Below, one piece after another: positions 2,266-44,931 of a DNA stretch of 64,000 nt (positions are counted from its first letter, which is position 1; each line of letters opens with the position of its first letter). Position numbers and translations under genes: made by a program. Source of the DNA: Pyrenula massariospora (taxonomy: Eukaryota > Ascomycota > Eurotiomycetes > Pyrenulales > Pyrenulaceae); the NCBI GenBank assembly GCA_021030905.1, contig JAGFMI010000003.1:744001-808000 (forward strand). Direction: 5' to 3'. The notes beneath the pieces were generated by a model. It saw only the letters and a program-made list of their open reading frames with translations. It made no database searches and was not told the DNA's origin.

Positions 2266-3256
2266 TCACGCCCCCCTACTCCCCGGAAAATCCTCCCCCC
2301 TCGCCCGATACCTCAACGTCCACTCCCTCAGCGCCCCAAAATCCCGACACACATGCGGAACATCAATCCTAAGAAACGGCACCTTCCTCTCGGATCCGGG
2401 CGGTATGGGGCCCCAGTAGTCCAGCGCGAAGTCGCCGGAGCACATGATGGACTGGCGGAGGTGGTCGATGCAGTGCTCGCGGTGGTGCAGGATCTCCGCC
2501 GGGGTAGTGTTGGCGAAGTAGTGCTGGGGGAAGAAGGATTTGCGGATCGTGTTCAGGCAGTGGAGTTGGTGGTACATCTCTGAAATCCGACTCGCGAGCT
2601 GTTAGTGATTTGGACTTCAGGAGAGAATAGGCATTAATGATAAGATTGGAGATGCGTGGGGTAACTGTACCGAGAGCGTATACGTTCAGCTGGGGCTTTG
2701 ATGTGGATGTGTATGTATGAGGTAGCTTGGCGATGTCATAGTCGTCATTCGTGAGTTGGATCTGGCCGCCAGAGCCGCCGGTCAACCCCTCCCAATAAGC
2801 GTCCACCTCAGCTGATGGCACGTGACCGTAGGTCCAGAGCTCTCGCCTTTCCCGGAACGTGACGGTATGATATTTCACTGCTTCGGCGGCTGGGTCTGTT
2901 AGGTTGGTCAGTCATCGAATGGGGAATCAGTATAGTAGGAGGGGCCATATCGAGAGCTCACAGTAATTTCTCTGGGAATCGAAGTGCTTATTGATCATGT
3001 GAAGTTGTACGTCGTGCATGGGTTGCAAGACGGGGATAGAAAATGCCCATAATAAGACAGAGGATGCAAAGAGAAGCGCATTCAACAAAGTAATCAATTT
3101 CCACCGCCTCGCTGGATCCCGGGCGCACCATGGAATTTTCTTCTGCCCGCTTTCGGGCTCAGGTTCTGTCGCAAAAGTGATACTTTCCGGGGAACGGAGC
3201 GGTGAATATTTGGGACCCTTTTGGCTTAAAGATAGCCGAGATTGTAAGAACGCCAT
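2266..3256 (-). CDS. UstYa-family (DUF3328) oxidase-like protein of the RiPP locus
   Basis: Exons 3256-2962, 2895-2671 and 2579-2266; introns of 66 and 91 bp with GTGAGC and GTACAG donors. Predicted 277 residues, usual for the family. One N-terminal transmembrane helix (about residues 54-72) is followed by a lumenal domain with the two diagnostic motifs HQLHC (177-181) and HREHC (206-210), then CRDF near the C-terminus. UstYa proteins are associated with oxidative cyclisation of dikaritin-type peptides such as ustiloxin, phomopsin and asperipin in the secretory pathway, and the two HxxHC motifs are thought to hold the metal site. The gene diverges from the precursor gene at 3848 across a 591-bp promoter, so I infer it modifies that peptide. 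The first in-frame ATG was used as start; an upstream GTG was rejected. Confidence 0.88.
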
Positions 3257-3847
3257 TGCAGAGACAGACACCGAAATAGGAGTTGAAGAAATAATCTGAT
3301 CAAATCTCTAATTCGGCATAGGGATTCATAATATGAAGTAGAGAGCGAACAAGTCGTGAGAAGAGCCATCAGAACGAACAAGCGCTCGGCGACTTCAACC
3401 GGGACGAGACAATGATTCAAGATTGGTAAGAGGCGTCGTGAGAATGTGGTGCCTTACAGTCTGTTCTGCTCAGGGCTTATCAAGTATTTTGCCGCATCTG
3501 CTAATCATCACATCACGGCTATGCAATCCTCGGGGAATAAGATTGTCGTCTTTGCTGCGACCGAGCTGAGCCGAAGCTATTCGGGAAATACTACCTTCCT
3601 CCTACGGAATGAATCGGTATGCGAGTTCTCGGTTTCAGACGAAATGCGCCTCTCGTGAAAGTTTCTAATGGCGGTAAGTCTAAGCGAAATGTGACATATG
3701 CATGCAGGTAATCAGAAAAAGCAGGGAAGGAGGGAATGGTAAATCAGATTACAAAATGATAGATATAACCCATCTTGCGAGACCGCCCCCAGAGTGAGGT
3801 AGCAAACTTTCTGCTCTTCTACCCACTCTAGTCCAGACTTGAACACC
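3257..3847. promoter_or_regulatory. Shared divergent promoter of UstYa gene and RiPP precursor
   Basis: The 591 bp separate the two ATGs, with no supported ORF inside. The divergent arrangement would allow co-expression. No specific binding site was recognised with confidence. Confidence 0.5.
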
Positions 3848-4229
3848 ATGAGACTTGATATTGTGGCTCTTGTTGCCTCACTGGCATCATTGTCAATGGC
3901 ACGGGCCGTGCCCTCAGTGGGATCCTTGAAGGTGAGCTGCTCTTTCATGCGAGTCTCCATGAATTTGGCTGATGGAAGATTTACAGAGAGAGGAACAGCT
4001 CAAGCGCGACCCTGGTGCTGTGGTCGGATTCTATCTGACGGAGGAGGAAGGAGATACTAAAGCGTCGAAGATCAAGCGTAACCCTGGAGCCGTGGTCGGA
4101 TTTTATTTGACCGATGAAGACGAAGCTGGCGAGAAAGCAAAGCGTGATCTTGCGGTTGCGGTGAAACGAGATCCTGGAGCGGTGGTGGGGTTCTATCTCA
4201 CGGAAGACGAAGATACCAACAATGAGTGA
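3848..4229 (+). CDS. Dikaritin-type RiPP precursor peptide with three core repeats
   Basis: Exon 1 is 3848-3931 and exon 2 is 3987-4229. The 55-bp intron (GTGAGC...TTACAG, CTGAT branch) is phase 0. The 108-residue product starts with a signal peptide of about 20 residues ending SMARA. Exon 2 encodes three copies of (D/N)PGAVVGFYLT followed by an acidic triplet, at 4008, 4080 and 4170. Each copy is preceded directly by Lys-Arg (LKR, IKR, VKR), as expected for Kex2-type cleavage in the Golgi. A short degenerate unit, DLAVAV plus KR, lies between copies 2 and 3. The layout (signal peptide, KR-bounded repeats, a Tyr in each core, adjacent UstYa gene) is that of ustiloxin/asperipin/phomopsin-type precursors. 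I know no described compound with this core. The mature residues are not determined; Phe-Tyr and the flanking Val/Gly/Leu/Thr are the candidates. Confidence 0.87.
4008..4211 (+). repeat. Three in-frame core-peptide repeats
   Basis: Units at 4008-4049, 4080-4121 and 4170-4211 (14 codons each; spacing 72 and 90 bp). PGAVVGFYLT is identical in all three. The first residue varies D/N/D and the tail varies EEE, DED, EDE. Spacers end in Lys-Arg. At the nucleotide level the units differ at 5-6 of the 10 core codons, all synonymously. Confidence 0.9.
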
Positions 4230-6095
4230 GCAACAAAGTCAGGTTCCCGCCGCGGGGTCCCAGGGAGACATGATTGGTTGTGGCATGTTACCCCTGTTGG
4301 GGTGTGGAAGATTTGACTAATGGGGAATTTGCTCCTTTGACACTCACCGACACAAGCTGCTTTTACGATGTCTCCCCCTCACTTGCTCGTATCCTTCGTT
4401 TAGATTGTTGCTTGCTTCTGGACCTTTTTGCGACGAGGGTCTTGTCAAACTTTTAGCCAAGCAATTAGGACAAGCAATTAGGACAAGCAATTAGGACAAG
4501 CAATTAGGACAAGATTAATTTCGTCACGTGATAAGCGTAATGCAGCCATGCCCATGGCGGAGATCCCTCAGTGCTGCATTATTCTCGCAGATGCATCATT
4601 CGTTGTATTCTGTGTCACCGTTTGGTCGAGTGGCAGGCAGGTCCGACAGCCTAACCTGACAGCTGGTAAATTGAAATCTAAATATTAATCAAAACCAAAA
4701 CACATTAAGCTAGAATTGGATGTAAGTATTCTGTCAGATCAAGCTTGTAATTTAAATTGTATCTTCTTGAAAACAAGATATAAAAATCTTGATTTCAAGA
4801 TGTTTTTACTAAGGCTCATCGTGGTTAGATGTAAGTTCTCGCTAGAAGACTCTAACGAAACTTGACCGGAGCCACCACGCTAATCTAACAGCTATTATCA
4901 TCTCTCGTACTCTTTCAACAGCAAAGAAGTATGGTTAACATTATAGCATCCTGGGATCGAACATGCTCATGCGCGACTTCCTTCCTCCCTTCAACATCTC
5001 TACTCCCCATCATCGTGGGCGATCGACAGACCACTACCGCCCCGTCATTAGCGTGGCACCGCTACTCTACTCGCTACCGTTGTCATTAGCTTTGTAGCAA
5101 CGGATTTAATGGGGGTATCTATGGACGTCTTTCTCCAGAGTACAGACTTCAACATTGGGGTAGAAAAGGTCTAAACGTAACTAACAGTTCCTTGCTCCCG
5201 TCGATTAATCTCGAAATTCTCCTGGGAGAGATACAAATATCGCTATTGTATCAGTGGGGAAGGTCAGAGGAAAGACTGTAACGGGCTCTTCATATGATTC
5301 GTGAAGGTCGTCGCTGAATTATACCGTTTCATCTACAGATGGCATATGCTAGCGCCTTCGTGACCGCGGTCGCAGCCGTTGAAGCCGTGGAGCAGGCTGA
5401 GAATATCTACGCGGAGTCTGCGCTTATCTATGAACGTTGGAGGTAAATTAGGCATCCATTCTAGGCATATTTAGGTAAAAATATAGGCGAGAAAGAAGAT
5501 TGAATGGTAAGAGAAGATAAGTCCTTTGTTATCCATTGTGCTGACATCTTCTACTGATACAAACATTTCAGATCCTTCTTATTGTAACGTGCGCATGACA
5601 ACGAGGACCTTTACCTGACATCCATGTTCTACCTTCAGCGAGATGGTACAGTTTAGCACAGAGAAGTTTCAACAACTGAGCCGTAGTATAAGTATACTGA
5701 GCGTGATGTAGAATCACCTCCATTATTACGGCAGAGCGTCGCTCTAGAGGTAAAAAGGATCAGAAATATCATCTTCGGGCTATTGTTTGTACCACCTCGG
5801 ACGCTTGAGATAATTTTTCCTTACCAGAGGATCTACGAAGCGCGATTGTGACTGACGACGAACGCGAAGGCATAGGTCAAAGATAGCTTACTATATTGAT
5901 AATGCTTAACAATCACGCCTGAGGCTCCGAGCGTAGCTCAATGGAAGACTATCTCCGGGATGCTGATCAATGTGAAATTTCAATACATAAAAGAAGAATT
6001 CGCCAATAAAAAACATTAACACATTAGTCAAACGGGAAGACGATACGGCGCATTATAGTCTTTGTTCAACGGTCTTCTCTCCAATAAGACCCGAT
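4230..6095. other. AT-rich intergenic region, no supported gene
   Basis: Holds a 13-bp minisatellite (4459-4510) and a near-perfect hairpin (4766-4799). A short GC-richer open stretch, 5341-5445, reads as about 34 Ala-rich codons from an ATG after a possible acceptor, but no continuing exon could be built. The rest is AT-rich with many stops in all frames. Confidence 0.55.
4459..4510. repeat. 13-bp minisatellite, four perfect copies
   Basis: The unit AAGCAATTAGGAC is repeated exactly four times (starts 4459, 4472, 4485, 4498), about 230 bp downstream of the RiPP precursor stop codon. Confidence 0.95.
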
Positions 6096-7657
6096 TCACG
6101 CCGTCCATTCTCTCCATTTGCGCCGTACCTTGTTCGTGATACCATGCAGGTCGTAGACCAGCTGTCCGCGATTATGCCAATCATTGTAGTCTTTGGAGAG
6201 ACGCCAGTGACGGTCAGCCAGCTTGGCAAGAAAAGCGGTGAAGACAAACTGTTGACGTCAATTCGGGGACATCCCAGCTCGGATATGAATCGACTCACGT
6301 TGTTGACGTTTGTCAGTGCATTGGCAGTGGTGATGGTAACGACGTCGGTCCAGTCATATGCTTTGTTACCATTGGCCAATTGGTAGTCCACTTTCGAGAA
6401 CGGGGTTGCATGGCAGAACTAGGCGTCGGTCGTTAGCTATTGCACAATGTTGGATCGACAGAGCAGCGTCGCGAAAAGGCGATGGGTCAATAGGTTTCAA
6501 TTTCTGAAGGAGGGCATTGCGATTTCGAAAGGCGCCAGTTTGCTTTCATGTAAGAGAGTAATCTCTGCAAAATTCTCTGTAAAATGATCATGAAGCCTAC
6601 CTCGTGGATAATGGTAAATGCTGTCATGGATTGAAACGCATCGATCTGGCTGGCCAGCCACGCTGGACGATTTTGAATCGCATTATTCAAGTCTTTCTTC
6701 AAGGGGATATTGTCGAAGGAATGAAGCTGTGAGTTTAATTGCAGGTCGCATATCTATATTCAAGAAAAGGTTAACAAACACAGCGGTGGTAGGTCGAGTT
6801 TGGGTGTGATACAGTAATCACCGAGCGCAGATCCGGCTGGTTGCCGGGAGGAGGCGTCTCAGCCAGCACATTGTACGTCATTCCCTGCCTTCCAGCTACT
6901 TGACAACCTTCAGACAATGTAACGACTCCATTGGCCAAATCTTCCCATTGTTGGTACCTGCACAACATCAGCACTACTCACAGGTTGTAGAAATGCTGTC
7001 TTGGTCTTACAATGGAGCACCTGGGCCGGGAAGAGGCATGCCTGCTTGAAAGGCGCGAGGTCGGAGAATGTTCGGGACATAGCCCGGCCACTGGTACTGA
7101 GGATCGACGTCTGGTGCCAATGTCCAGCGGGATCCGCCGAGAAAATCTTGCTCACTGAGAGGGCAGGCTTGTTAGTACCAGCTCTGGCATACTAAATTTA
7201 TGGACGTACTCGTTGTCACAATATATCCTTACGTTCGCAGCCTGTTGATTAACCGTGGTCGCCCACGAAGCTATCCCCCCGACCCCCTGATAATTATTTG
7301 CAGGGTTTGGTGGAGTGCCTAAGAGATCTGCAAAAAATGTTGTCAATCGTTACTAGACAAGGATTTGGCATTGACATTACCATTGACCTGATTCAGAGCG
7401 TTTGGATTGACACCATAGTCTGTTTGGAAAATGTTGTTGAAATTGGTCTTCATATCGACATCTGTCGCAGACTGTAGGCGAGCGTATCCGCGAGCCGCAA
7501 GATCAATTGCTCCAGCTAGAGCCGCGTCAAAATTCGCCCGTCTAGGGTCATTCGCGTTGTTTGGCCTGCAAGAAGCGTCATCGACCCAATAAGTAAATTG
7601 CTGACAAGAGACTAGGGGAAAGAGACATATAGATAGAATGATCCACAAAACCTCCAT
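6096..7657 (-). CDS. Secreted HExxH metallopeptidase-like protein
   Basis: Seven exons: 7657-7381, 7327-7210, 7154-7011, 6957-6813, 6753-6601, 6418-6299 and 6248-6096, giving 369 residues. All junctions keep frame with GT..AG borders. An N-terminal signal peptide (about 18 residues, ending LVSC) is followed by a mature start QQFTYWVDD. The zinc motif HEFCH (residues 278-282) is assembled across the exon 5/6 junction (TIIHE then FCHAT), and AYDWTDVV lies shortly after it. This resembles uncharacterised ascomycete secreted proteins with an HExxH centre (deuterolysin/Lys-specific endopeptidase-like). I cannot identify the third zinc ligand, so the peptidase class stays open. A TATATAG-like element lies about 65 bp upstream of the ATG. 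It could process secreted peptides or host proteins (inference). Confidence 0.75.
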
Positions 7658-8995
7658 GATGATGGTGCTGACTGAAAACAAAGTGAGTATGGAGGTTGTA
7701 CAGTCTTAGGAAGCTGTCTATATATCAAGAGAATGTCTGACGTTGGGAAGAGGTAATGGCCGGGCATCGAGATATTACCAACGGTGTATAACTGTGGCTC
7801 TACTTCAGACAATGATGCTTGCTTCAATATTATCGCAGCCATCTTCAAAGAAGATCAATCTTGCAAGCAAGGGGCGTGGTTGGAAACAACTTGGAACGTG
7901 GTCTTGCCGCGTTGTCCCTGTTCCAACGGCAGACTTCAGCGCGCTTTGACGGAGACTTGAGACGACCGCACATGACGGTTTGGTCTGCGGGATTCTGTCG
8001 TAAGTTGTAGAGTTGCAATGAAATTCTGTCCCAGGAGCAGGAGATTATAACATTAGGCACTGAGGTATATGATGCCAACGGAGGAAACGGGGTTCTCGTA
8101 TGATCGTTGAGGCTGAACTTGGGGGCTGGGCAGCATTGGGCCCCTTGTCGGGGAGGAAAATCCTGCCTCTCCCCGCCTATGCACCCCGGGATGTTCGGAC
8201 CTCTGGGTAGGCATGTTTAGGTGCTTTGGCGGTAAGGCTGTCTTGATCGCCGAACCTGCCGGCCCTAGTTAGCCGTGAACCCCGCCTCCGCTCATCTACC
8301 TTACACCAGTTCCTGCTTCTGAATCCAACAGTCGGCGTTCACTCAACGGCTATTCTCGACATCCTTGCCCAATGCATGTAATATTCGGCGCCAAGCAGAG
8401 CCACAAAGAATCCTTGCTCATTGTTTGCGTGCCATCGTTGTCGCAGATTGCGGTCAACAGCTCTCATGGATGCAAGGAGACCGACTATCCCGCGACATCT
8501 GCCCATGAAAGCCTTGAAGGTGCCGACAAACAAAGACATGGTCATTGATGGGAGGAGACAGATGCAGAAGAGTACTGCCACTGACATTTCGACCTGCTTC
8601 CAAAGATGCTCGAGGCAGGCGCTCTCGCAGTTTCATGGCTTGTACATAAAACAATGCAACTTTACCGACAAGCGGCGTTTTATGACGCATCAAAGACTTC
8701 GCCAACAACCACAAACCATCTGGTAATGTCTCTTCCACCTTCACCGAGATCCTCTCTCAAAAGCAACGCGGAAAGTTGTTCAAGTCCATTGTGGCCCAGT
8801 ATTGAGGCGCAGGAGCCGGAATAAGCCAAAAATTGGATTTTCAAATCCGGGCACTTATGCTACTGATACCTTTGTTGGCTATACATAATGGGGCCACGAG
8901 AGCCAGCTCCTGGACGGACTACCTACTTATATAAAGCTCTTTTAGAGATCTCGGCGTGGCTTTTGGTAAAGTGAAATCTTTCAATTTGTTGCAAA
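7658..8995. other. Intergenic with a possible membrane-protein remnant
   Basis: On the minus strand between about 8620 and 8339, an 82-codon frame starting MSVAVLFCICLLPSMTMSL contains a plausible transmembrane helix. Its in-frame upstream extension hits a stop within about 15 codons, and a second coding-looking frame covers 8454-8744. This could be a broken membrane-protein gene; support is weak. Otherwise nothing seen. Confidence 0.25.
8928..8936 (+). promoter_or_regulatory. TATA box of the 8996 gene
   Basis: TATATAAAG lies 60 bp upstream of the ATG at 8996, in a fitting position for a core promoter. Confidence 0.5.
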
Positions 8996-11537
8996 ATGCA
9001 TTTCTCCTTTTTCTTTCTGGCGGCAGCTGGTGCTGCGTTTGCTACGTTCATTTCGGATGTCCCACAAACGTCGAGTCCTGGAGTTGCTAGGCTTGTTGGC
9101 GAAAAGCGTGATGACCCTACAGCGACAATGACCTTCGGTCCAAGCTCTCTTTATAGTTTATCTGTTGTGAGTCTGCTATTGATTGTCTACTTACCTAGCT
9201 CCGCGACTAACAGCAGCCAGACCTCGGGTGCCTCATCACCAAGTGGTACCAGCTTTACAGTGATTGAGGCTATTGGTAGTGCCTCTGTCGGGTTCAACTT
9301 TATTCCTGGCCCAGATTTGCAAACTCAAATCAGCAGCGCACTGGCTCAATGCAGCGGCACTCCGAACACCAACTGCATTAATGCGATTGTGAATGTTTTA
9401 CCGGAAGACCAGGTCGACATCCAAAGGAGATCCGTGGCGCTCTTAGCAATGATTGGCGTAGGGGTTCGGTATGTAATAGCCGGAATTATAGGAGCCGCTA
9501 CTGGTTGGGGTCTCGGGAAAGCAGTCAACGTGTACCACGCTCCTATGAGCAACGCCCAACAGGCTCAAACTCCAACTGCTGCCAGCGCATTTGCTTTCGT
9601 TACAGGCACAGGTGCGAGTCCTGTTGTTGTCACTGTCCAGCCTAGCGACACACCTGATCCAACGTTAGTCACCGTTGATATGTTCCATTTCAGTGCTCAA
9701 TGTGCGACAGGCCATACATTCAAGCAGCAGCGAGCGGCTCTGGATTCTCCATCAATGCCAATGATCAGACTTTGTCTCGAAATACCAACGATTTAGCTGC
9801 TCAGAACTCTGGGCACTGCCCTGGGCCCCAAAAACGGTCTAGCAATTCCTTCGAAAAACGCGTTGGCCCGCCAGACGAAGGGACGGTCGCTTGTCTCATA
9901 GCATTAACCACCACATTGATCAGAAATATGATCAATGGCCCTCTCGCAGATTGGGTTCGAGTGAATCGTAACAACCGACAGATTGCACCAGCTGGAGCAG
10001 GCGCTGCGGTGGTACTGGCCAATGTTCATCAGGAGGTTGCCCCACTAGAACAGGCTGTCGATTTAGCCGGAGTCATCTGGGAAGATGTCGAGCGAGTGGC
10101 TTACTGGCAGGCCTACAACCGGGTGGTCCTTCAACAAAGCGACGACCAAGTTGTGCAAGTCTCAGACGATGACATCAATCTCCAGTACTGTCCTGGAGCG
10201 GATTATTTGCTCTGCAGCGATGATCACTGTAATGGGAGTAATGGTCAATGTGCCGATTCTTCTGACTTGAAAGGGTGCGCTTGCAATGATTCACCGACTG
10301 GCTGTCCGGCAGGCGTTTTCCCAGCTTGTGGCAATTGTGGCGGAGCAAGTGGTGGATCGAAGTGTGCTGGGGTAAGTTTTTTCCTAGCCAATGAGGGCTG
10401 TGACGGACTGACATCACAGGTCAATGGCATCTTGAAAGGCTGCGGCTGCTGGAATGAGGCACCCCCAGGCGAAGCCTTTTTCGACAGTATTAATCAGTTC
10501 AACACTGCACAGCAAATACTCCTTAGCCTAAGAGATCTTCCAGACCCACCTCCGGCCCCAGCTGACGGTACTGACGGACCGCCAGCTGCTCAATGCGCTC
10601 GCCGAAAACGAGACGACGATATCACAGTGGATACAGAGTATTTTGCCGGGTGAACTTTTTCTATATTCAATGCGTAAAACCTTGCTAATTTTTGAAAGAC
10701 TTGCAGAAATGGCCTGCTTTTACGAAGTCGGCGATCCGTTCCCAAGTTTCGACAGAAAACTTACAAATGCGGATCAACCTTTACAGAAGTACAAGGAGTC
10801 TTACCCCGGGTTGACCATCGAATACAAATGGGAAGCCAAGACAGCTTCTTGCAGCAACAATACTTGCTTCGAAATTTTCGAAAGTTTCATCCATAACAAT
10901 ACGGATTGTAGGCTCTCTTCCCTTATCCCCTTCAAAGTCTGAATCTTCTGCCTAACCAAGTATAGGCAACCCATCTTCGACATCCATGGCCAAATCAGGT
11001 TCCCTGAGTATGGAATGCGGCACCGCTTCTTATTCTATTTCAAGCGGTTTTCCTTCCCCTTCCCCTTCGCCGACAACGACTACAAGCACTAGCACACCAA
11101 CCTATACCGGGCCATCGGCCTGCGAGTCGGCCGGCTGGAAAGGAAGCATGTCACAAATCATGCTCCAATCACGTCCCTGGTGCGCCTCTTTCGGGGATGG
11201 CAAGACTTTCGACCAGTCAAACGAGCTTGGATCGTGTTCAGCTCCACTCCCCAACGTAGCCAATCCACAAGGCAATGTCAACGATCCTCCCCTTGGCAAT
11301 CTCGTGAATTTCTTCATCCGGCAGGACCCCAAGCCCGAATGCAGTTCCGTGCCCTTGAATACAATTAGCTTCAACAACGGAGATTGCTGGGACGCCATCA
11401 AAACTGCAGTAATGGCCTGTCCAGTGCCAGGCGATGATCAGAATACGCCTGGTGGGAATGAGGGGATCAATTGCGCGCTATATGGCTATTTTGCTGCAGA
11501 TACAAGTCAGCAGACGGAAGCTTGTCCAACAGGCTAA
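8996..11537 (+). CDS. Large secreted Cys-rich protein with Kex2-like sites
   Basis: Exons 8996-9663, 9711-10371, 10420-10649, 10699-10907 and 10966-11537; introns of 47, 48, 49 and 58 bp. Predicted 779 residues. A signal peptide (MHFSFFFLAAAGAAFA) leads the protein. Dibasic sites follow at GEKRDD, PQKRSS, FEKRVG and ARRKRDD, suggesting processing into several chains. A hydrophobic stretch (YVIAGIIGAATGWGLG) lies near residue 160. The middle holds a Cys-rich block (CACND, CGNCGG, GCGCW). A Pro/Ser/Thr linker precedes a C-terminal Cys domain containing CALYGYFAAD. I do not recognise a catalytic family. The secreted, dibasic-processed, Cys-rich layout fits an effector-like or antagonism protein, but that is inference. 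A GTGAGT at about 9166 could start another intron but does not keep frame, so it was not used. Confidence 0.68.
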
Positions 11538-12345: not shown

Positions 12346-12382
<37 letters not shown>

Positions 12383-12432: not shown

Positions 12433-14545
12433 TCATAGATATTGTCTACCCCGACTAATACCTCTCCCATCACAATCCCGTGCAGACATAACAACCAAAT
12501 GCCCCACCCTCTCCCCCGCCCGACAGTCTCCCAGCTTAACTCTCACCCCCCTCATCAGCCGCGCCCTCTCAAAACCATCCAGCGTATTCCCCGTATCCCC
12601 CTGATAAGCCTCTGACCACACCTCACGCACGTGCGGATTGTCCCTGGTGAGCGAAGACACGTGGCCCAGGATATCCGGCCCGTGGGTCGCGAATTGTTTC
12701 AGGGCGGTGCTGACGAGGCCGCAGAGGAAGAGGATGGCTGATGAGAGGAGAAGGACGGTGAACCACGCGTCGTGGCATCAGTAGACCCGGACCTCGATCT
12801 CGTTGGTGGCTGTTACCGGGGCTGTGAGGCCGTCATCGTCCGCGTTTGTGGACGGGGCGGTGATGGACTCGAGCGCGAGGGTGGGAATGTAGTACGTATT
12901 CAGTAGTCGTCCGAGGCGCTCGGTAAGCAAGTCACCAGCGACGGTCGAGAGATTGGTCGGGAAGACGCGGTCGTTGGAGCCGAGCGGGTTGTGGCCGAGC
13001 TTCATGTATTGCTCGGTCAGCGAGCTGGTGACGAATTCTTCCGAAGAGTCCTCGTAGCCGGATGCTACGGCGAAGTAGTTGAAGAAAGACTTGGCGATGA
13101 TCTCGTTATCCAGTGGTGAGGTATACTGGGGAGGAATGTTGGGAAAATTTAGGCCGGCTTTATAACCTTGGTCAGAAAGTCGAATGGCATCGACAGCACA
13201 TTTTTTCCCCTTACACGAAACACGGATGTCAACATTAGGGTAGGATATGAGACAGTTAAGGGCGGTGATGTTCTGCAAGTCACTGCTGGTATCGGTGGTG
13301 TAAGATTGGAAATAGAGACTTCGCTGGCGATCACGGCTTGCATCGGAGGCATCGAATGTGCCGATAGAGAAGGTCACACGTCCTTCGCCTTCACCATCAT
13401 AGTTACTTGACGAGAATCATTGGGAGCCCGCACCATCGACCAGCTTTCCAGACCCTCTCAAATGTCCCGTGGAATTGGATTCAAACCAGAGCACTTCGTC
13501 ATCGTATGGAATCAGCTGTGGCCCATCTGGACAATCAAGGTGAAAATACGAAGAGCTCATAACAAATTTTGTGCGGCCAGCCTCCGAGATATTCGCGATT
13601 GGGATTCCAACAAGGGAGGAATATTCTCTAGCGCCTTCGGCTCCTATGATCTTCCATCTTTCCGAGTCTGCGGTAACACTGTCAAGACTCTCGTACTCGG
13701 GGATCTTAACGTTACCCCAGGTATCTCTAGGCCCAAAATGTGTCGCTTTAGGGGCCATCATGGATGAAAGATAAATAGCATCGATCCCACTGATCTGGTA
13801 GCCAGGGTCGTAAATCAAGACCGATGTTGACGACGTATTTAGATACCCGTCTTGCTGTTGGCTCATTTGCTGGGTCGTCTCAATGCTAAGCAATCGCAAA
13901 TTGCTTTGCGCCCCGAGAGGCGACAATGTCCACAAAATGAATAAAAGTGGAGATACAAAACTCCATTGACGAAGCGGTATTTGGGTCTTAATGGTGGCCG
14001 CAACAGTGGTGCTTCCGAAAAGCTGCTCTAGTAGACCGACTGTTGCACCTTTCTCTATCAAGTACGTGCCGATCATCTCGAGAGAGCGCCCAGCAATAGA
14101 AGCGAACAGAATTGGAAAGGCGGTGGCACCCTATGCAAAGTCAACACGTAAGCTCAAAGCTCAACAAATAACACACATACCCATTCACTCTCATCAGTGT
14201 GTGTCCGAGGGAATCTTCTCTCACGCCATTACCATCTATATGCTTCCCCAAAATTGCAATGGCAGCAAAGCACACCGGGACGAGCATCAATACAATATCC
14301 AGTGCGATGGTCAGGTGATAAACGAAGCCGCTCTTTCTAAGATCATACGCTTTGCTTGGCCAGTTCGGAAGAAGCATTCCGGTAGAAGCCTCATGTTCGG
14401 TACCAACAGTCCCAGAGTGAAATCCACTTTGAGAAGCACCAGAGAGATCTTCATCACTGTCCCCTCGACTTGGTGTCGTCGCTGCTCTGGTAAAATGGCT
14501 TCCATTGTTGGACTGGAGTCCTGGATAGCGGTACGGTGCCTGCAT
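12433..14545 (-). pseudogene. Multi-pass membrane protein gene with two in-frame TGA stops
   Basis: Exon 1 is 14545-14189 (ATG). The intron is 14188-14131 (GTGAAT...GCATAG). Exon 2 is one reading frame from 14130 to 12433. It would encode about 680 residues: a Ser/Thr/Asp-rich N-terminus, helices around IALDIVLMLVPVCFAAIAIL, the GATAFPILFASIAGRSLEM block with EKGATVGLLEQL, a WTLSPLGAQ motif, a lumenal Asn-glycosylation-rich domain (FSIGTFDASDASRDRQRS), and a last helix AWFTVLLLSSAILFLCGL. I know this arrangement from a common, functionally unassigned Pezizomycotina membrane family. TGA codons at 13419-13417 (after GAGSQ) and 12780-12778 (between EVRVY and CHDAWF) break the frame, with family-like sequence continuing past both. 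A 48-bp in-phase intron could remove the first but would have a poor donor and would delete conserved-looking sequence. Likely a recent pseudogene, or two assembly errors. Confidence 0.7.
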
Positions 14546-15072
14546 GACGGACTGCTCGACGATCGGTATTCAGTCTTGTTGATTTATGATATTAGAGCAG
14601 GGGTTCAAAGTCCAGGCAGGAAAGTCGAAGCTACACATAAGCACAGAACAAAATGCCCGAGCTGCTTGTTATGAAGAAATCTGGCAGGACATATTTGCGA
14701 GAGGATAGATAAAGAGAGAAGGCAACCGACGGTGTGAGATAAGGCTTCTTCGAAGAAGAGGCCAGACATCTTCGTGGCACACTTGTACGGTTCCCGCACG
14801 GCACCTGTTAAGCACTCCAGCCCATGATTCTACCTCGTTTGATCACGGCAGGAGCCATGACTTACACCAAGCAGACAATCTAAAATGTTCACGGCGATAG
14901 CTGGGCTTGTGGGTGGTCTAGCTCACATGGGGCGATCAGGTTATTCATGCATACCCGAAGGCCTACAACGAAATTGTGAATTACTCTTGGAGAGTATGCA
15001 GCTTGTCAAAACGAATTTCCGCCAATTTTACATCAATGACCATTACCCCTAACCAAAGATTCTTGACGGCTC
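14546..15072. other. Intergenic, no gene seen
   Basis: Between the start of the broken membrane gene and the 3' end of the P450 gene. No supported ORF. Confidence 0.6.
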
Positions 15073-18536: not shown

Positions 18537-19246
18537 TCACATTGTCAGAAGCCAGTCGGCGATGAAAATTAGTATACAATGTAGGAGAACTTGGATGGGA
18601 CCTGCTGCTCTCTTCGAAGTGGGGCTGGTGGAAGAAGTGCTGGTTGCAGACGTCTGAGAGCTGTCATGTGATGTACTCGTCGCGGTAGTAACTGCCGGTG
18701 CTGTTGTGATTGAGGCCTGGGTGATGGTTGTCGACGAGCCAGTGACTGTGACTGTTTCATCCACGACAACACCACTCGTGCTTGGCGTATAGACACCCAC
18801 ATATCCAGTCGTAGAGTTGTTGATCACGTAGGCGGAACAGATTGCCGTGCTCGCCGTCTCACAGAGGAAGCTTGTTGTTGAAAAACTCGTAGGAATGGTT
18901 GAGAAGTTAAAGGTTGTTGACGGCGTTGCGGCGGAGGTCGGTAGTTGTCCAAGACCCGCGGAGATAAAGTCTTCTGGACTCAGTTAGGGCATTGTCCAAT
19001 ACAACCGGCTACCTGTTCAATGTAATATGCTTCGCAGAAGCACAGGCAGTCGCTCAGGCCGGTGCGAGGAGTGCAGAGCGTCATTCCGAAAACGAGATCC
19101 ATGCATGTCTCGCCACATTCGGTGTACGTGTCGAGATTCATTGGATCATTGTATGTTTGCCCGAGACATAACGTCGACAGGTGAAGGAGTAGTGCTGACT
19201 TGAGGAGAAGAAAAGATTGGCGGTTTGATGTTTTATACTCTTCCAT
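18537..19246 (-). pseudogene. CFEM-like GPI-anchored small protein, frameshifted
   Basis: Read from ATG 19246 (alternatives in frame at 19255 and 19264). A signal peptide (LLLKSALLLHLSTLCLG) is followed by an eight-Cys module: C in TEC, ETC, TLC, SDC, CLC, CFC, AGC and GQC. That spacing resembles CFEM domains, which bind heme or act at fungal surfaces. The frame ends at TGA after GQCPN (about 18980). One base out of frame, the protein continues (SPEDFISAGLGQLPTS) with a Ser/Thr-rich stalk and a hydrophobic GPI-type tail (VLLHCILIFIADWLL) ending at 18537. No GT..AG intron longer than 32 bp restores the frame, so a one-base indel is the simplest reading. A pseudogene or a sequencing error are both possible. 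Confidence 0.55.
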
Positions 19247-34600: not shown

Positions 34601-34947
34601 TGGGGGTGGGGGGGTTTGTTTGGGAGCTTGGGGATCCTGGGGGGAAGGGAGGGGGAGGGGTGAGGAGGGTGGTGGTGAGGGGGGATGGGGGGGTTGTGGA
34701 TGAGGATGCGGATGCGGGTGTGGGTGTTGGGGATTGTGAAGAGGAGGGGGAGGGGGAGGGGTGGGATGGGATTAGAGCGGAGGCGAGCTGTGAGAGTTTG
34801 GGAGATGATGATGATGAGAGCCCGCCGAGTCCTGGGACGGAGAGGCCGCCGCACGCGCAGACGGGGAGGGGGAGGCGGCATGTGAGCTTTTTGGATGGGG
34901 TCACGGATTCGGGCAGGGATTGGACGTGGAAGGGGATGCTATTTTAG
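31618..34947 (+). CDS. Large F-box protein with WD-like C-terminal half
   Basis: One uninterrupted frame of 1109 residues. The N-terminal 250 residues are Ser/Arg-rich and disordered. F-box-like motifs are at about residues 262-292 (VPPMVFIHLCRFLSFRDYQS) and 303-335 (LPREVIQQIQGHLRPHDFNA, then RYTCRAWL). The rest has beta-propeller-like strands (VSGCGRFLLVSVARIIFVYRL, DVLAISMDTSCNRYAIAALL, RSVAICPQRRCVAFGCGMGVELHWVD) and ends with RRHVSFLDGV and DWTWKGMLF. It probably recruits a substrate to an SCF ubiquitin ligase through Skp1. The base composition flips from C-rich (33.6-34.37 kb) to G-rich (34.4-34.8 kb) within the frame. Confidence 0.85.
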   Translation: MYHSGQSEVGRPLHVRPRTHFCSSNPNARHLSGHAERCGSIGDMLRGTVTYTSLQTSIDPVPSRRLSSVEEQPRRNSLILHRRVSEDFGTSPDSKSRSSSLSPIQTRPSTRALSYCSPPFDVSTTSSDNDLISQDEVSRAHSRSRRLSERLDPVRRNSKASDPTSIESMSDGNIPPRRVSSREIVSEPESLLQMPLIEVPGSLEETYEAWNITKNYTKQSREPSSDSSTSTGSSTCLRNDAFPGHRDTLARIKYSRRPAPEVPPMVFIHLCRFLSFRDYQSLRLVSKVWLHSLPPPKLPPQYFLPREVIQQIQGHLRPHDFNAARYTCRAWLLASLDKRILTKMLKKAGYWHAAALDLRQRQEKLFAARGTDPDGNVNMYDGANDQASNTTESQTEEWVLSRRLATECMLSSAWRGSAFMTDHTLNRFHMTMTVDLKALETANTARNQDMDPVKPVLTVSGCGRFLLVSVARIIFVYRLVNSPLVTLRPVTKIKCPDDVLAISMDTSCNRYAIAALLQGRMGMVCDIRGAMNGRQDVCESYGHQAQNSHGVSFTNLDLDAGSELRHAASVPQRRSEITTSSFYPFKTTSSSRSPLHSQSKRRVSISPRTPPSRESEIPMETGPRSIYRNLGSVEDPPRSVAICPQRRCVAFGCGMGVELHWVDALSEIDLNRWFPLSAPADFLFFLTPRASANSASKLRLISSASGQPSEHDFPPSQPPRRSVSNAQPPQLTEVRHDPSSNHIANLFFTNLPTTRSPPPPPTDPRQTTPTPHHPIRHELSLLRAVDCDHYRAVPLSDGTHMLFTDPETGFLCLGSDAPLGNPTKLLRKVVCVPPPDIMPPDHHNNNEEEGESAAPSRPDHYTASPDLDRGVRIVAAYSRHIILYNLPADIFEELKRVSLPLPFHHNPSSPSASGGALATSDLLMDVYMDQTANPETTGVSRANSLNVLDRVAWGTRSIRVSGVHVGSVEGEGVGAMSVECGGGGVRVWGFGKGGVGVGGFVWELGDPGGKGGGGVRRVVVRGDGGVVDEDADAGVGVGDCEEEGEGEGWDGIRAEASCESLGDDDDESPPSPGTERPPHAQTGRGRRHVSFLDGVTDSGRDWTWKGMLF

Positions 34948-35116
34948 TCTTTGGCATCTGCGGTTGAGGAGTGAGTGTTCTCGTAAAAAGCGGGGAGGCT
35001 CATTGGCTGGGCTTGGATTGGATTAGAGTGGTACGGTGTGAAATGATGGTTGGTCGAAGGTAATGCAGATACAAGAGATTGCGTGGAAAATTTTATTGTT
35101 ATTATTGAAATGAATA

Positions 35117-36253
35117 CTACGGTCCCTTTCCGGCGATTCCCGTGTAAGCTGAGGCGTTGAAATGGTATTCTTTCATGAAGTCCATGATTGTGTCCTATGT
35201 TACTGTTAGCCAGCCGATTATAAAAAAACCCCTCGTAGAACTCAGGGATAGTACTCACCCAATCCCGACAAACATGTCCAACCCCCCACCCCTCCACCGC
35301 AATGCGCCGTCCATCCTCCTCTTCGCGCGGCCACTCGAGCGCCAGGTCCCCCGCGCACATGACGCCCTGGCGCAGGTAGTCGAGGCAGTGCGGGACGTGG
35401 GCGCCGCGGGGGCCGTCGAGGAGCTTGGCTTTAGACACATCGCCCGACACGACACCGTGCAGGAGGAGGTAGTAGGCGTGGCGGATCTGGCCGAGGCAGT
35501 GGAGTTGGTGGAAGAGGGTTGTGCTGTAGATTGGACCCCTGGGTTGCGTGGGGGTTAGGGGGTGGTTTGGGGGGAAGCAGGATGGGGGAAGGGGCTTACC
35601 AGGTGGTTGGTTGGCCGGGGGGGAGGGAGAGGGAGGAGGGGGTGAAGGGGGGCGGGAGGTAGGTGAAGCCGCGGCCAGGCTGGGGGGTGGTTAGTGGGGA
35701 GGATATGATAGAGAGGGTAGCGGAAGAAGTGCAGGGAGGTTTGCAAAGGGGGGAGGTTGGACGAGGAGAGAAAAAGAGGACTGGTTGCTCACAGGGAGGA
35801 GTTGGTCCCATGCAAGGTCGGTCAAGAGGTCGGGGCGGGCAGAGAAGGTCTCGTTAGGTTGGAAGATTGTAGTTGTCCATGGGACTGCGGAAGTAGTCGT
35901 TAGTTGCGTGATGCGTGTAGAAATGAGGTTTGAGGGTTGAGCAAAAGGCTCGTACTGTATGGGAAAGGGTCGGAGAGCTGTCCTTCATCTTTGTTGCTTT
36001 TAGAGGATATAGACGAGGAGACTGATTGAGACGGATGTTGTGGGCTGAAAAGGAAGAAGATGAGCGATGTGATGGCGACACCGGAGAGAAATGAGAAGGT
36101 CGTTTGTAGGAGAGAGGAATGACGGCTTGAGACCGACTTCGAAACAGCTGTTGAAGGTTCTTTCTCAAGGTCTGACAGCTCAGAATCCGGGACCGGCACA
36201 TAAGCTTGCGAGGCTGCAGCGGCGGCGGACCATGGCATTTTGATGCCCGGCAT
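35117..36253 (-). CDS. Second UstYa-family (DUF3328) protein, isolated
   Basis: Five exons: 36253-35956, 35884-35793, 35679-35600, 35538-35259 and 35194-35117; 275 residues. A cytosolic N-terminus with EL.DLEKE is followed by a transmembrane helix at about residues 48-69. Then come IPWTTTIFQPNETF, AWDQLLPPGRGFTYL, the HQLHC motif (167-171), HVPHC (204-208) with LDYLRQGVMCAGDLALEW, and HVCRDW before the last exon (DTIMDFMKEY). Both HxxHC motifs are complete. No precursor-like gene with KR-bounded repeats was found in the flanks. It may act on the precursor at 3.8 kb, on a peptide elsewhere, or in another oxidation; the sequence does not decide. It is tail-to-tail with the F-box gene, 169 bp apart. 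Confidence 0.88.
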
Positions 36254-40186: not shown

Positions 40187-43100
40187 ATGGCGCTGGAAAC
40201 GCTGCCCTCGACGTCGGAGATTTACCTCATGCCATTGAACGATGATGGCACTCCAGACGTACCGGGAGGATATATATACCTGCCCCCTCCAAGCAGCCCT
40301 CCGTACAGCGTGCGGTTTGCTATTGAAGGGGCTAGCTCGATATGTCGGGAGGGGAGTCTGTGGGTAAACGTGCCCGTCGGCGGAGAGAAATTCGATCGTT
40401 CAAAATTTAGGGAATACAAGTAGGCTTCATGCTGTCTATCAAGAATGAAGTTGACCCCCGGGAAGGTTACGGCCAGATTTCAATCGTACCATCGAGATCG
40501 ACGTGCCGATCACCCAAGCTGGCGCATTTGCCTTTTATACTTCATTCGCGCCTCTACCTGAGTTTTCCATTTCAACGACGCCAGCACCTCCAGCTACAAA
40601 GTCAGAGACATTTTATATCGATGTGTCGCCTAAATTGACATTAGGGAAAGAAACTTTGCCTCTTGACGCCCTATCTATTGTCTCTGTGGTTTCGAAGTTT
40701 ATGGGGAAGTACCCGTCTCAATGGGAGAACCATATTGCTGGCCTTTCGCAACGAGGCTACAACATGGTCCATTTTACACCGCTGCAGGTCCGGGGAGAGT
40801 CAAATTCCCCGTACAGTATCTATGACCAACTGTTGTTCGATCAGGAGAATTTTCCAAATGGGGAGAAAGACATTGCCAATCTGATCAAGAAGATGGAAAG
40901 TGACCATGGGATGCTCGGTCTGACTGATGTCGTCTTCAATCATACTGCAAACAACAGCAAATGGCTAGAGGAGCATCCTGAAGCTGGATACAATGTTGAG
41001 ACTGCTCCCTGGCTAGAAGCTGCCGTTGAGCTTGACGATGCTCTTCTCCAGTTTGGCAACGACCTTGAGAAACACGGGTTGCCGACTGAATTTAAGACGG
41101 CAGATGATCTGACAAAAGTTATTCAAGCAATGCGGGACGTTGTCATCAACGGCATCAGGCTCTGGGAATATTACGCCCTTGACACCAAACGGGATTCAAA
41201 GGCCATAGTTGATGCATATGTGTCGGGTCATGTCAAGCTTCCTCATGGAGGATTTGGCAGCTCAGATATTGGCGGCTTGGATATGGTCAAGCAATGGTCT
41301 TTGAAGCAAAAAGCTGATTTTCTGAAAGACAAAGGAATGCTCAACGGGCTCAGAATTGACGGCCGCTGGTGCCGACAAGTTGATCCTGCTATTGGCGCTG
41401 CTCTTCTCAACGCTATACACGGACGCTATAATGCAGAAACCGGTCATAGTTTTGCTAGAGAAACGATCGATGGAGTCTTAAACGAACTTAACCTCCCTTT
41501 CTACCGTGAGTATGACACTGATGTTGCGGAAATAATGCAGCAAGTCTTCGATCGCATCAAGTACCTTCGACTCGATGAACACGGGCCGAAGCTTGGACCG
41601 ATCACGAAAAAGAATCCGTTTATTGAAACTTACTTCTCGCGCTTGCCTCTGAATGAGACGACTCGCAAGCACAACCCAAAGGCGCTTGCTCTTGTTAACA
41701 ATGGCTGGATATGGGCCGCAGATGCAATGAAGGACAATGCGGGACCGGACTGGCGGCCATATCTGCGCAGAGAAGTCATTGTTTGGTCAGACTGTGTCAA
41801 GCTACGTTATGGAAGAGGGCCTGCAGACAATCCCTTTTTGTGGGACTATATGAGCAAATACACTAGATTGATGGCGAAATACTTTGCGGGATTCCGCATT
41901 GACAACTGTCACTCTACACCTCTCCATGTAGCTGAATATCTACTGGACCAGGCAAGACTGGTGCGACCAAACTTAGCCGTTTTTGCCGAACTCTTCACAG
42001 GCTCAGAAGAGACCGATTATGTATTCGTCAAACGTCTGGGTCTCAGTGCTCTCATTCGGGAAGCAATGCAAGCTTGGAGCACACAGGAGCTGAGTCGCCT
42101 GGTACATCGCCACGGCGGTCGGCCGATCGGTAGCTTTGAGATTGACCTTCCTGCGGACGGCAGTCAAATATCAAGAAATCCTCAAAGTCTCAGTGCCGCA
42201 GGATCTCAGACAAGAGAGGTTGTCCATCATATACGTCAAAGTCCTGTGCATGCACTATTCATGGATTGTACTCACGACAATGAGATGCCTGCCCAGAAGC
42301 GAGACGCACGAGATACCTTGCCAAATGCAGCCTTAGTGAATATGTGCGCTTGTGCCACCGGAAGTGTTATGGGGTATGACGAGGTATATCCGAAATTAGT
42401 CGAAATAGTCTCCGAACAAAGAAAATACTCCTCGCCATATTCGAAAGCAGACGTTCAGATTGGGGCTGGTGAAGGAATAGGTGGAGTAAAGAAATTATTG
42501 AACCAAATCCATACGATGATGGGTAAAGATGGATATGATGAAACTCATATTCACCACGAAGGGGAATATGTGACTGTGCACCGAGTCCATCCAGAGTCAC
42601 GTAAAGGCTTTTTCTTGATTGCCCATACTGCATTTCCCGGATATGGAAATAGTAAGGGCAGTTTCAATCCAGTCCATTTGACAGGAACCAAAGCGAAAGC
42701 ACTTGGAGCCTGGGCGCTCGAAGTTGATGCAAGTGCTGAAGCTAAGGCTATAGCGTTGGAAAATAAAGAATATATAACCGGACTGCCATCACAAACGAAA
42801 GATGTAAAAGGCGTTAGTGTAACGTCGTACAACGCTGACACAATCATCAAGATCCCGGACACTTTCCCACCTGGATCTATTGCGCTGTTCGAAACATGGA
42901 TTCCGGGGGCCGAGCATTCAGAAGGCCTTGGAAATTTTGTTACTAGCGGTGCGGATGAAGCATTTCAAGACCTGGACCTGATCGACCTGAATTTCGTTCT
43001 CTATAGATGTGATGCAGAAGAGCACGATTCTAGCGAGGGCCAAGATGGTGTCTATAATATACCAGGATACGGTCCACTTGTGTACGCTGGGCTTCAGGGC

Positions 43101-44931
43101 TGGTGGAGTGTTCTTGAAACCGTTGTGAAAAACAACGACCTTGGACATCCGCTTTGCAATCATCTGCGGGACGGCCAATGGGCACTTGATTTTGTCGTTG
43201 AACGCCTTGAGAAGATTTCTCAGCGAGGCGGGTATGAGAGGCTAAGAAAACCGTCGGAATGGTTGAAACAACGTTTCAATGCGGTGCGCGCTGTTCCAAG
43301 CTTCCTCTTGCCCAGATATTTCGCCTTAATCGTACAGGTCGCGTACACAGCAGCCTGGCGAAGAGGCTTAAGTCTCTTCGGAGTGAACATACAACACGGT
43401 CAGAAATTCCTGCAGAGCCTTTCGATGGTCAGTGTCCAGCAAACTGGATACGTAAAATCGGCTTCTCTATGGCCGACCAAAAATGTTCCCAGCCTTGCTG
43501 CTGGCCTACCACACTTTGCTGTTGATTGGGCGAGATGTTGGGGTAGAGACGTCTTCATCTCCCTACGTGGTCTGTTCCTCTGCACTGGTCGGTACGAAGA
43601 AGCAAAGGAGCATATCATTGCTTTCGGCAGCGTGTTGAAACATGGAATGATTCCAAACCTACTAAGCAGCGGCAAGCTTCCACGGTATAATTCGCGAGAC
43701 TCGCCTTGGTTCTTTCTGCAAACCATCCAGGACTATACACATATCGTGCCAAACGGACTTGACATCTTAAAGGCCAAAGTTCCGCGCAGATTTCTCCCTT
43801 ACGATGATACATGGTTTTCAGAGGATGATCCTAGAGCACATTCAAAGACTTCTACCATCGAAGAAATTGTTCAAGAAGTTCTTCAACGGCACGCATCTGG
43901 ACTATCTTACAGAGAATATAATGCTGGCCCAAACCTTGACATGCAAATGAAACCGGAAGGTTTCGACGTGAAAGTAAACGTTGATTGGGATACTGGCATT
44001 ATCTTCGGCGGAAGCCAGAACAACTGCGGAACATGGATGGATAAGATGGGCGAAAGCGAAAAAGCCGGTAGTAAAGGGGTGCCAGGCACGCCACGAGATG
44101 GTGCTGCAGTGGAGATCACTGGTCTATCCTACAGCACCCTGAAGTGGGTTTCCGAATTGCATAAGAGTGGAAAATACTCCTATAATGGCGTCAAGATTAC
44201 CGAAGATCAGAAGATCACATTTGCCGAGTGGGCAGCAAAGATCAAAGCGAGCTTCGAGAAATGCTACTGGATACCCTTAGACCCGAAGGAGGATTCCGAA
44301 ATGGATGTCGATCCAAAACTGATCAACCGGCGAGGAATCTACAAAGACCTTTTCAGGTCCGGAAAACCGTACGAAGACTATCAATTACGGCCAAACTTCC
44401 CGATCGCCATGACTGTAGCCCCAGACCTCTTCACACCGGAGCGAGCCTTGATCGCCCTGTCTAAAGCAGATACCATCCTTCGAGGTCCAACCGGGATGGC
44501 GACGCTTGACCCCTCAGACCTCAATTACCGCCCCTACTACAACAACTCCGAAGATTCCACAGATTTTGCAACATCTAAAGGCCGAAACTACCATCAGGGC
44601 CCTGAATGGCTGTGGCCAACCGGCTTCTTCCTACGAGCATTGCTGAGATTCGATCTGATGCGGAAGAAGACGCCCCAAGAGAGGCTGGAGAGCTTCCAGC
44701 AGGTGACGAGGAGATTGAAGGGGTGCAAGGAGGCGATAAAGGAGAGTCCGTGGAAGGGGTTGACGGAGCTGACGAATAAGAATGGGGAGTATTGCGCTGA
44801 TTCGGTGAGTCCTCTCTTCGAAGTTGTGTGAGAGTCAGGCTAATGTTTTGCAGTCTCCGACCCAAGCTTGGTCGGCAGAATGTCTAATTGATTTGTTCCA
44901 TGATGCTTCGGCTCTGGCATTGGACGGATGA
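40187..44931 (+). CDS. GDB1: Glycogen debranching enzyme (4-alpha-glucanotransferase / amylo-1,6-glucosidase)
   Basis: Exons 40187-40419, 40466-44804 and 44854-44931; 1549 residues, the usual length. The first intron is 46 bp; the acceptor ending CCCGGGAAG gives the junction YKLRPDFNRTIEIDVP. The N-terminal glucanotransferase part has HFTPLQVRGESNSPYSIYDQ, LTDVVFNHTANNS and the nucleophile region FRIDNCHSTPLHVAEYL (about residue 553). The C-terminal glucosidase part has WARCWGRDVFISLRGLFL (about residue 1104), NGLDILKAKVPR, NVDWDTGIIFGGSQNNCGTWMDKMG and GPEWLWPTGFFLRA. The enzyme moves maltotriosyl branches and removes the remaining alpha-1,6 glucose so that phosphorylase can degrade glycogen in the cytosol. 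All expected blocks are present. Confidence 0.97.

Follow-up and report, generated by a model that had tools for sequence, protein, structure and literature searches.

The question raised by this locus is whether a small gene on the forward strand at 3848-4229 of the window (the whole 64,000-nt stretch of Pyrenula massariospora DNA analysed) encodes the precursor of a UstYa-modified cyclic peptide, as a preliminary description had proposed, or a secreted product of another kind. Translation gave a two-exon gene with its ATG at 3848 and a 108-aa product (MRLDIVALVASLASLSMARAVPSVGSLKREEQLKRDPGAVVGFYLTEEEGDTKASKIKRNPGAVVGFYLTDEDEAGEKAKRDLAVAVKRDPGAVVGFYLTEDEDTNNE from the joined exons). Exon 1 (3848-3931, 28 codons) has a signal-peptide-like start by translation and hydropathy (MRLDIVALVASLASLSMARA, followed by VP), with residues 3-18 hydrophobic (mean Kyte-Doolittle value 1.96) and then a cleavage-like site, ARA/VP; the signal peptide was judged from simple hydropathy alone. 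Exon 2 (3987-4229) contains the Lys-Arg (KR) sites, three core blocks, a DLAVAV fragment and a TGA stop. The intervening 55 nt (3932-3986, GTGAGC...CTGAT...TTTACAG) look by eye like a normal fungal intron and are needed to join the two reading frames, which connect only across this interval, upholding the gene model first described. Since stops are met in the unspliced frame, the secreted form would depend on the intron. Shortly 3´ of the gene, we noted a perfect 13-bp tandem repeat (CAAGCAATTAGGA, 4.3 copies, 4458-4513).

The three core blocks, PGAVVGFYLT, are identical at the protein level and lie at 4011-4040 (residues 37-46, after KR-D), 4083-4112 (residues 61-70, after KR-N) and 4173-4202 (residues 91-100, after KR-D), each one residue (D, N and D, respectively) past Lys-Arg. 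The exact repeats are thus as originally reported, with two corrections to how they had been drawn. KR precedes all three copies, but the third, whose fragment extends to the C-terminus, is closed by that end and not by Lys-Arg; and the core, said to be centred on VVGFYLT, is indeed repeated, but the conserved stretch is wider, [DN]PGAVVGFYLT[ED][ED]. The segments 3´ of the blocks vary in both sequence and length (EEEGDTKASKI, DEDEAGEKA and EDEDTNNE), and an additional small Kex2 fragment, DLAVAV, is predicted between the second and third copies. Under a strict repeat criterion (the same 5-mer in three places, separated by dibasic sites), block-shuffling 310,800 bases six times gave no matches, and there were none among 40,940 residue-shuffled ORFs and no other in the rest of the 64-kb window; the background rate of repeat precursors was gauged from these shuffles and the rest of the window only. 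A chance origin of the repeat is excluded. At the DNA level, the three copies of the block differ at 8 sites by at least nine changes, every one synonymous (seven of the sites are third codon positions, and the eighth is a first position in a leucine codon). With ~30% of single changes in the block expected to be synonymous, the probability of an all-synonymous outcome under random change is ~2e-5 to 4e-5. The blocks are therefore under purifying selection that is confined to them: they diverge only synonymously while the spacers differ, which marks the core block as the part that selection maintains, in keeping with a peptide that is released.

These observations bear on whether the product could be a short repetitive secreted protein, for instance an effector or surface protein, that functions without being cleaved and in which the KR sites are incidental. 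Judging by its sequence, the product is small, repetitive, acidic and apparently secreted, as such a protein would be. We nevertheless consider this explanation highly improbable given that KR stands ahead of the conserved block every time, that conservation is confined to the block and that a UstYa gene adjoins.

The UstYa gene, on the reverse strand, has three exons: exon 1 (2962-3256, start codon at 3256), with a hydrophobic stretch, by eye a presumed transmembrane helix; exon 2 (2671-2895), with a 66-nt intron before it and a 91-nt intron after it; and exon 3 (2266-2579), with the motifs HQLHC and HREHC and a stop codon that ends at 2266. The 277-aa product matches Pfam PF11807 (E 6.7e-38, residues 48-261), and the adjoining UstYa gene claimed at the outset is thus borne out by an intact three-exon frame 591 bp from the precursor. 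These 591 bp between the two start codons (3257-3847) may be a promoter shared by the divergent genes. Three homologues of the enzyme (P0001-P0003) were found at E <= 0.001, and both HxxHC motifs are invariant between them and the window protein; P0003 is Knufia fluminis OHC33_008859, with 47% identity over 64% of the query. A PDB sequence search with the UstYa protein returned nothing useful (best E 0.39). With ~59 UstYa genes in 37.8 Mb, a random point has a probability of ~0.003 of falling within 600 bp of one. The intact frames also speak to whether the locus is decayed or silent, with its sequence preserved and its expression lost. There are only three repeats, and no other tailoring gene was recognised among the nearby ORFs scanned, as such a loss might leave. 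Set against this, the UstYa and precursor frames are both intact with GT..AG introns and the cores are under purifying selection, making decay or silence extremely improbable.

We compared the locus with published definitions. Kex2-processed repeat proteins (KEPs) are defined by an N-terminal signal peptide and by three or more repeats in tandem, each 8 aa or longer and set between dibasic Kex2 sites (PMC7329392), and a dikaritin is described as a KEP precursor cyclised by a UstYa homologue (PMC10512285), with DUF3328 as the class-defining domain (PMC12048977). At the window, three 10-aa blocks stand shortly after KR, the third bounded by the C-terminus and not by a second site, and beside the precursor is a UstYa/DUF3328 gene with two HXXHC motifs. 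The survey reports DUF3328 neighbours for 22% of 7878 KEPs, most commonly at the adjacent position, and Tyr in 65.6% of KEP repeats with a DUF3328 neighbour versus 38.2% of those without (PMC7329392); here Tyr is present in all three core copies, within GFYLT. UstYa proteins are also reported to work in non-RiPP pathways (PMC12048977), and we counted against a dikaritin-type reading the mere three repeats, the lack of a nearby tyrosinase and the X-Pro after KR. The dikaritin-type architecture put forward earlier, a repeat precursor with an adjoining UstYa gene, matches the published criteria, and this is very probably a minimal dikaritin-type RiPP locus.

The class route is described as secretion, cutting by Kex2/Kex1 and then oxidation by members of the UstYa family, the cross-link usually forming at Tyr (PMC9233826, PMC6514808, PMC10512285, PMC9769878, PMC7329392). 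Following it, the precursor would enter the secretory pathway through its N-terminal signal, Kex2 would cut behind every Lys-Arg, and trimming of the basic residues would fall to a Kex1-like enzyme, the last two steps being established for the class. The predicted fragments are DPGAVVGFYLTEEEGDTKASKI, NPGAVVGFYLTDEDEAGEKA, DLAVAV and DPGAVVGFYLTEDEDTNNE, plus the short EEQL and the leader. Three of these, peptides of 19-22 residues, would share [DN]PGAVVGFYLT and carry acidic tails, with computed linear [M+H]+ values of 2326.15, 2081.97 and 2084.89, or 2114.07, 1870.87 and 1872.81 without DP/NP. The divergent UstYa enzyme would then oxidise the core, most likely cross-linking the Tyr of GFYLT to a neighbouring side chain, a bond proposed from asperipin-2a, ustiloxin and phomopsin. 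Further peptidases would remove the acidic flanks of the core, and the class mechanism predicts at least one modified peptide containing GFYLT.

Few of the genes around the pair gave a recognisable match. Pfam returned nothing for ORFs or pieces at 602-1174, 1682-2047, 6056-6418, 7346-7705, 8975-9793, 9679-10650, 10956-11534, 12781-14569 and 18540-18983. A cytochrome P450 gene (15255-16993, reverse strand, by Pfam) lies ~11 kb from the precursor and, beyond it, Pfam matches were to a DnaJ protein, a PHM7/RSN1 channel-like protein, an F-box protein, a second UstYa protein and a cutinase. The second UstYa match (34947-35690, reverse strand, by Pfam) is the next on the contig, ~31 kb from the first, and the strict repeat scan found no repeat precursor around it in the window. 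A multi-exon gene at ~6100-7657 (reverse strand) has a signal-like start and, in its joined exons, the motif HEFCH, which is HExxH-like and might indicate a metalloprotease; it was rejected as a known cluster peptidase, the hand-joined version being without a Pfam match. In L040, upstream of the window, inspection by eye alone pointed to one ORF that looks like an alpha/beta-hydrolase and another that resembles a membrane protein. An (AC)17 dinucleotide run lies at 12347-12380. Among the best 120 matches listed for the glycogen debranching enzyme frame (40455-44828), Pyrenula ochraceoflavens is the best named one (82% identical), another match reaches 87% over 94%, and Chaetothyriales are at ~73%; on this one gene the fungus probably belongs to Chaetothyriomycetidae (Eurotiomycetes), close to Pyrenulales.

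The gene set is closest to the asperipin-2a arrangement of Aspergillus flavus. That cluster, like the window, combines a Kex2 repeat precursor with a single UstYa homologue, no tyrosinase is listed for it, and its core is likewise aromatic and Tyr-containing, although the core sequences differ (PMC6514808, PMC7329392). It also has a transporter and an isoflavone-reductase (PMC6514808), whereas no methyltransferase, transporter or reductase was recognised by Pfam among the ORFs scanned near the precursor. Ustiloxin and phomopsin precursors resemble that of the window in their signal peptide (at the window a signal-peptide-like start), KR-separated Tyr cores and UstYa proteins, and in the acidic residues that flank their cores (EDYXI; PMC6339444). 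The ustiloxin/phomopsin-type cluster has a five-gene definition (cited in PMC12048977), and two or five UstYa genes are given for these clusters (PMC7329392) versus one beside the window precursor. Neither a tyrosinase in the cluster nor multiple DUF3328 proteins were found here. Of the tyrosinase exon matches listed genome-wide, at least 26 in all, none on contig C27 is nearer than ~246 kb to the precursor; profile matches, a lower bound, included no S41 peptidase on that contig; and X-Pro follows KR, a further difference from ustiloxin and phomopsin. Of the proposed ustiloxin/asperipin/phomopsin assignment, the asperipin-like minimal set therefore fits better than the ustiloxin/phomopsin type, since no tyrosinase match was found within ~246 kb.

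The same genome offered other precursor-enzyme pairs for comparison. Merging of 82 UstYa exon matches gave ~59 genes in 44 loci over the 37.8 Mb, and 33 of the 44 loci were at least partly examined for repeat precursors: 20 with flanks of ~2-5 kb, seven with ~1.5-3 kb, two with ~1-1.5 kb, the two UstYa loci of the window, and L001 and L008 with ~1.5 kb. Eight of the 33 (the window, L001, L016, L025, L029, L033, L035 and L039) contain a match to the strict criterion. Six of the other loci have clear precursors. At L001 (2-442) the core is DSDAATLWDSDGVSE in a frame truncated by the locus edge, with its start outside. L016 (3514-4164, C4:511833-512483, reverse strand) has ~14-15 DVESPFY-type units divergent from its UstYa gene, and L025 (2017-2661, C11:2989585-2990229, reverse strand) has eleven VGYAYTT units, mostly (DP)EVGYAYTTVEE-KR, with two UstYa genes near. 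L033 (3737-3919, forward strand) carries TVEPDITW with a signal-like piece upstream in frame, by eye; L035 (4790-5170, forward strand) carries GVQADPVSIND; and L039 (3474-3869, C32:1137473-1137868, forward strand) has three PHIYAEYIREAEPE-type units (PHIYAEYI) among three UstYa genes. Two further candidates are doubtful. The frame at L029 (7047-8243, C15:286178-287374, forward strand, 399 codons), near a UstYa gene, has repeated HHQGK motifs with Ala/Gly-rich spacers, is without a methionine, and its HHQG repeats have long, irregular spacing. L036 (130-558, reverse strand, DADDANxY) matched a lax criterion only, with two copies found by script and a third by eye. The lax scan (a 5-mer twice) gave 6 matches in six shuffles and several noise matches in real sequence, and as it is not specific, L036 depends on its signal-like start and the third copy. 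By a comparison of positions by eye, six further UstYa loci have a tyrosinase match within ~7 kb, L016 and L025 (for the latter, C11:2987892) among them. The L025 precursor resembles that of the window in its units ((DP)EVGYAYTTVEE-KR compared with DPGAVVGFYLTEEE) and its UstYa neighbours; it differs in having eleven repeats, a tyrosinase near and UstYa genes unmatched by the window UstYa protein. A duplicated enzyme-substrate pair was rejected because the two UstYa genes of L025 are absent from the 35 matches of the window UstYa protein.

The least expected feature of the window precursor is the X-Pro dipeptide directly after KR in all three core copies (DP, NP and DP). In Ascomycota this Ste13 signature (X-Ala/X-Pro after a Kex2 site) is described as reserved, as a rule, for alpha pheromones, and it is reported absent from toxic cyclic-peptide and epichloecyclin precursors (PMC6339444). 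Similar dipeptides occur at L033 (X-Ala in 3/3 copies), at L025 (X-Pro in 7 of 10 dibasic-preceded copies) and at L016 (EA in 4 of 15), while none of the core copies inspected at L001, L035, L036, L039 and L029 has X-Ala or X-Pro after KR. At two of these loci, units that differ only by the dipeptide lie side by side: KR-DP-EVGYAYTTVEE and KR-EVGYAYTTVEE at L025, KR-EA-DVESPFY and KR-DVESPFY at L016. The enrichment is weak, with four of nine precursor loci giving a binomial P of 0.03-0.07 when an L025 copy preceded by KC, which is not dibasic, is counted as SP. In the genome we found two DPPIV_N-family matches (C9:621040 and C22:1573497) and one proprotein-convertase P-domain match of the Kex2 type (C9:270925).

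These dipeptides raise the alternative of a linear secreted hormone or pheromone-like signal, in which Kex2 cutting and Ste13-type removal of DP/NP would give unmodified GAVVGFYLT... peptides and the UstYa enzyme would act elsewhere. The X-Pro in every core copy and the two DPPIV_N-family matches fit such a signal, as do the signal-peptide-like start and Kex2 sites, given that ascomycete alpha-pheromone precursors have a signal peptide, Kex2 sites and X-Pro/X-Ala after KR, and KEPs with the STE13 signature have been called good peptide-hormone candidates (PMC6339444). Pattern searches of the genome found no separate pheromone gene: a strict alpha-pheromone pattern had 0 matches, a loose one had 129 versus 93 for the reversed control, and neither of two loose-pattern matches inspected, among those listed, is a pheromone precursor. 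By inspection only, PGAVVGFYLT resembles no known pheromone core of the Trp/Cys or PYGXPXG types, and lacks the Trp/Cys pattern; a Trp pattern is one alpha-pheromone core type. Other alpha-pheromone subgroups include Cys-containing and PYGXPXG cores (PMC6339444). The UstYa neighbour is also unlike pheromone precursors, as the survey describes a DUF3328 gene as almost never beside pheromone KEPs, with three exceptions (PMC7329392). Its adjacency by chance has a probability of just ~0.3%, and X-Ala/X-Pro occurs at three other UstYa-linked precursors (L016, L025 and L033). We therefore regard a linear pheromone-like signal as improbable and retain the dikaritin-type reading. The combination of a Ste13-type dipeptide with UstYa is unusual and not unprecedented, given the DUF3328 gene reported two genes away from a Rutstroemia homologue of Ccg-4, a pheromone precursor of Neurospora, and the DUF3328 neighbours of 17 of 76 Basidiomycota pheromone-like KEPs (PMC7329392). 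More tentatively, and with considerable doubt, we suggest that the locus might combine two pathways that are normally separate, UstYa oxidation and the maturation of pheromones, in which Kex2 cutting is followed by loss of X-Pro to a Ste13-type enzyme.

How new the system is differs between its parts. A homology search with the 108-aa precursor gave 187 candidates sharing words, none at E <= 1, among proteins 0.55-1.75x the query length, a range in which a longer many-repeat relative would be missed; no second copy was found in the genome at E <= 10. The only Pfam match, to OppC_N (12 residues, 17.3 bits), is below the cut-off of 23.9 and was taken as chance. The PGAVVGFYLT core was not found in open PMC text. 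The core was thus rightly called undescribed, with no homologue at E <= 1 among the known proteins searched and no description in open PMC text. Its novelty had been overrated all the same: the core sequence looks new, but this kind of locus is already widely catalogued, and six more clear ones are present among the loci examined in this genome. The survey of 7878 KEPs from 1461 strains counts 1758 repeat precursors that have a DUF3328/UstYa gene close by and 2560 precursors without a homologue (PMC7329392), and nine such precursor-UstYa clusters are reported for Venturia inaequalis (PMC9632046). From these counts, systems of this kind are well known, and only the core and precursor look new. 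A 2025 survey of lichen-forming fungi states that repeated precursors were not found in the two clans it studied (PMC12048977).

The locus offers a concrete, testable core, PGAVVGFYLT, for which just one modifying enzyme is a candidate; being small, it would allow UstYa chemistry to be examined with no tyrosinase involved. The fungus itself has ~59 UstYa genes, together with several matched precursors. Specialists would want to check the Ste13-type dipeptides that occur next to UstYa genes. Dipeptidyl trimming, if it occurs, would act on a peptide such as DPGAVVGFYLTEE, would fix where these RiPP cores begin (at the window, GAVVGFYLT...) and would back the published idea that pheromone-like linear peptides gave rise to cyclic ones.
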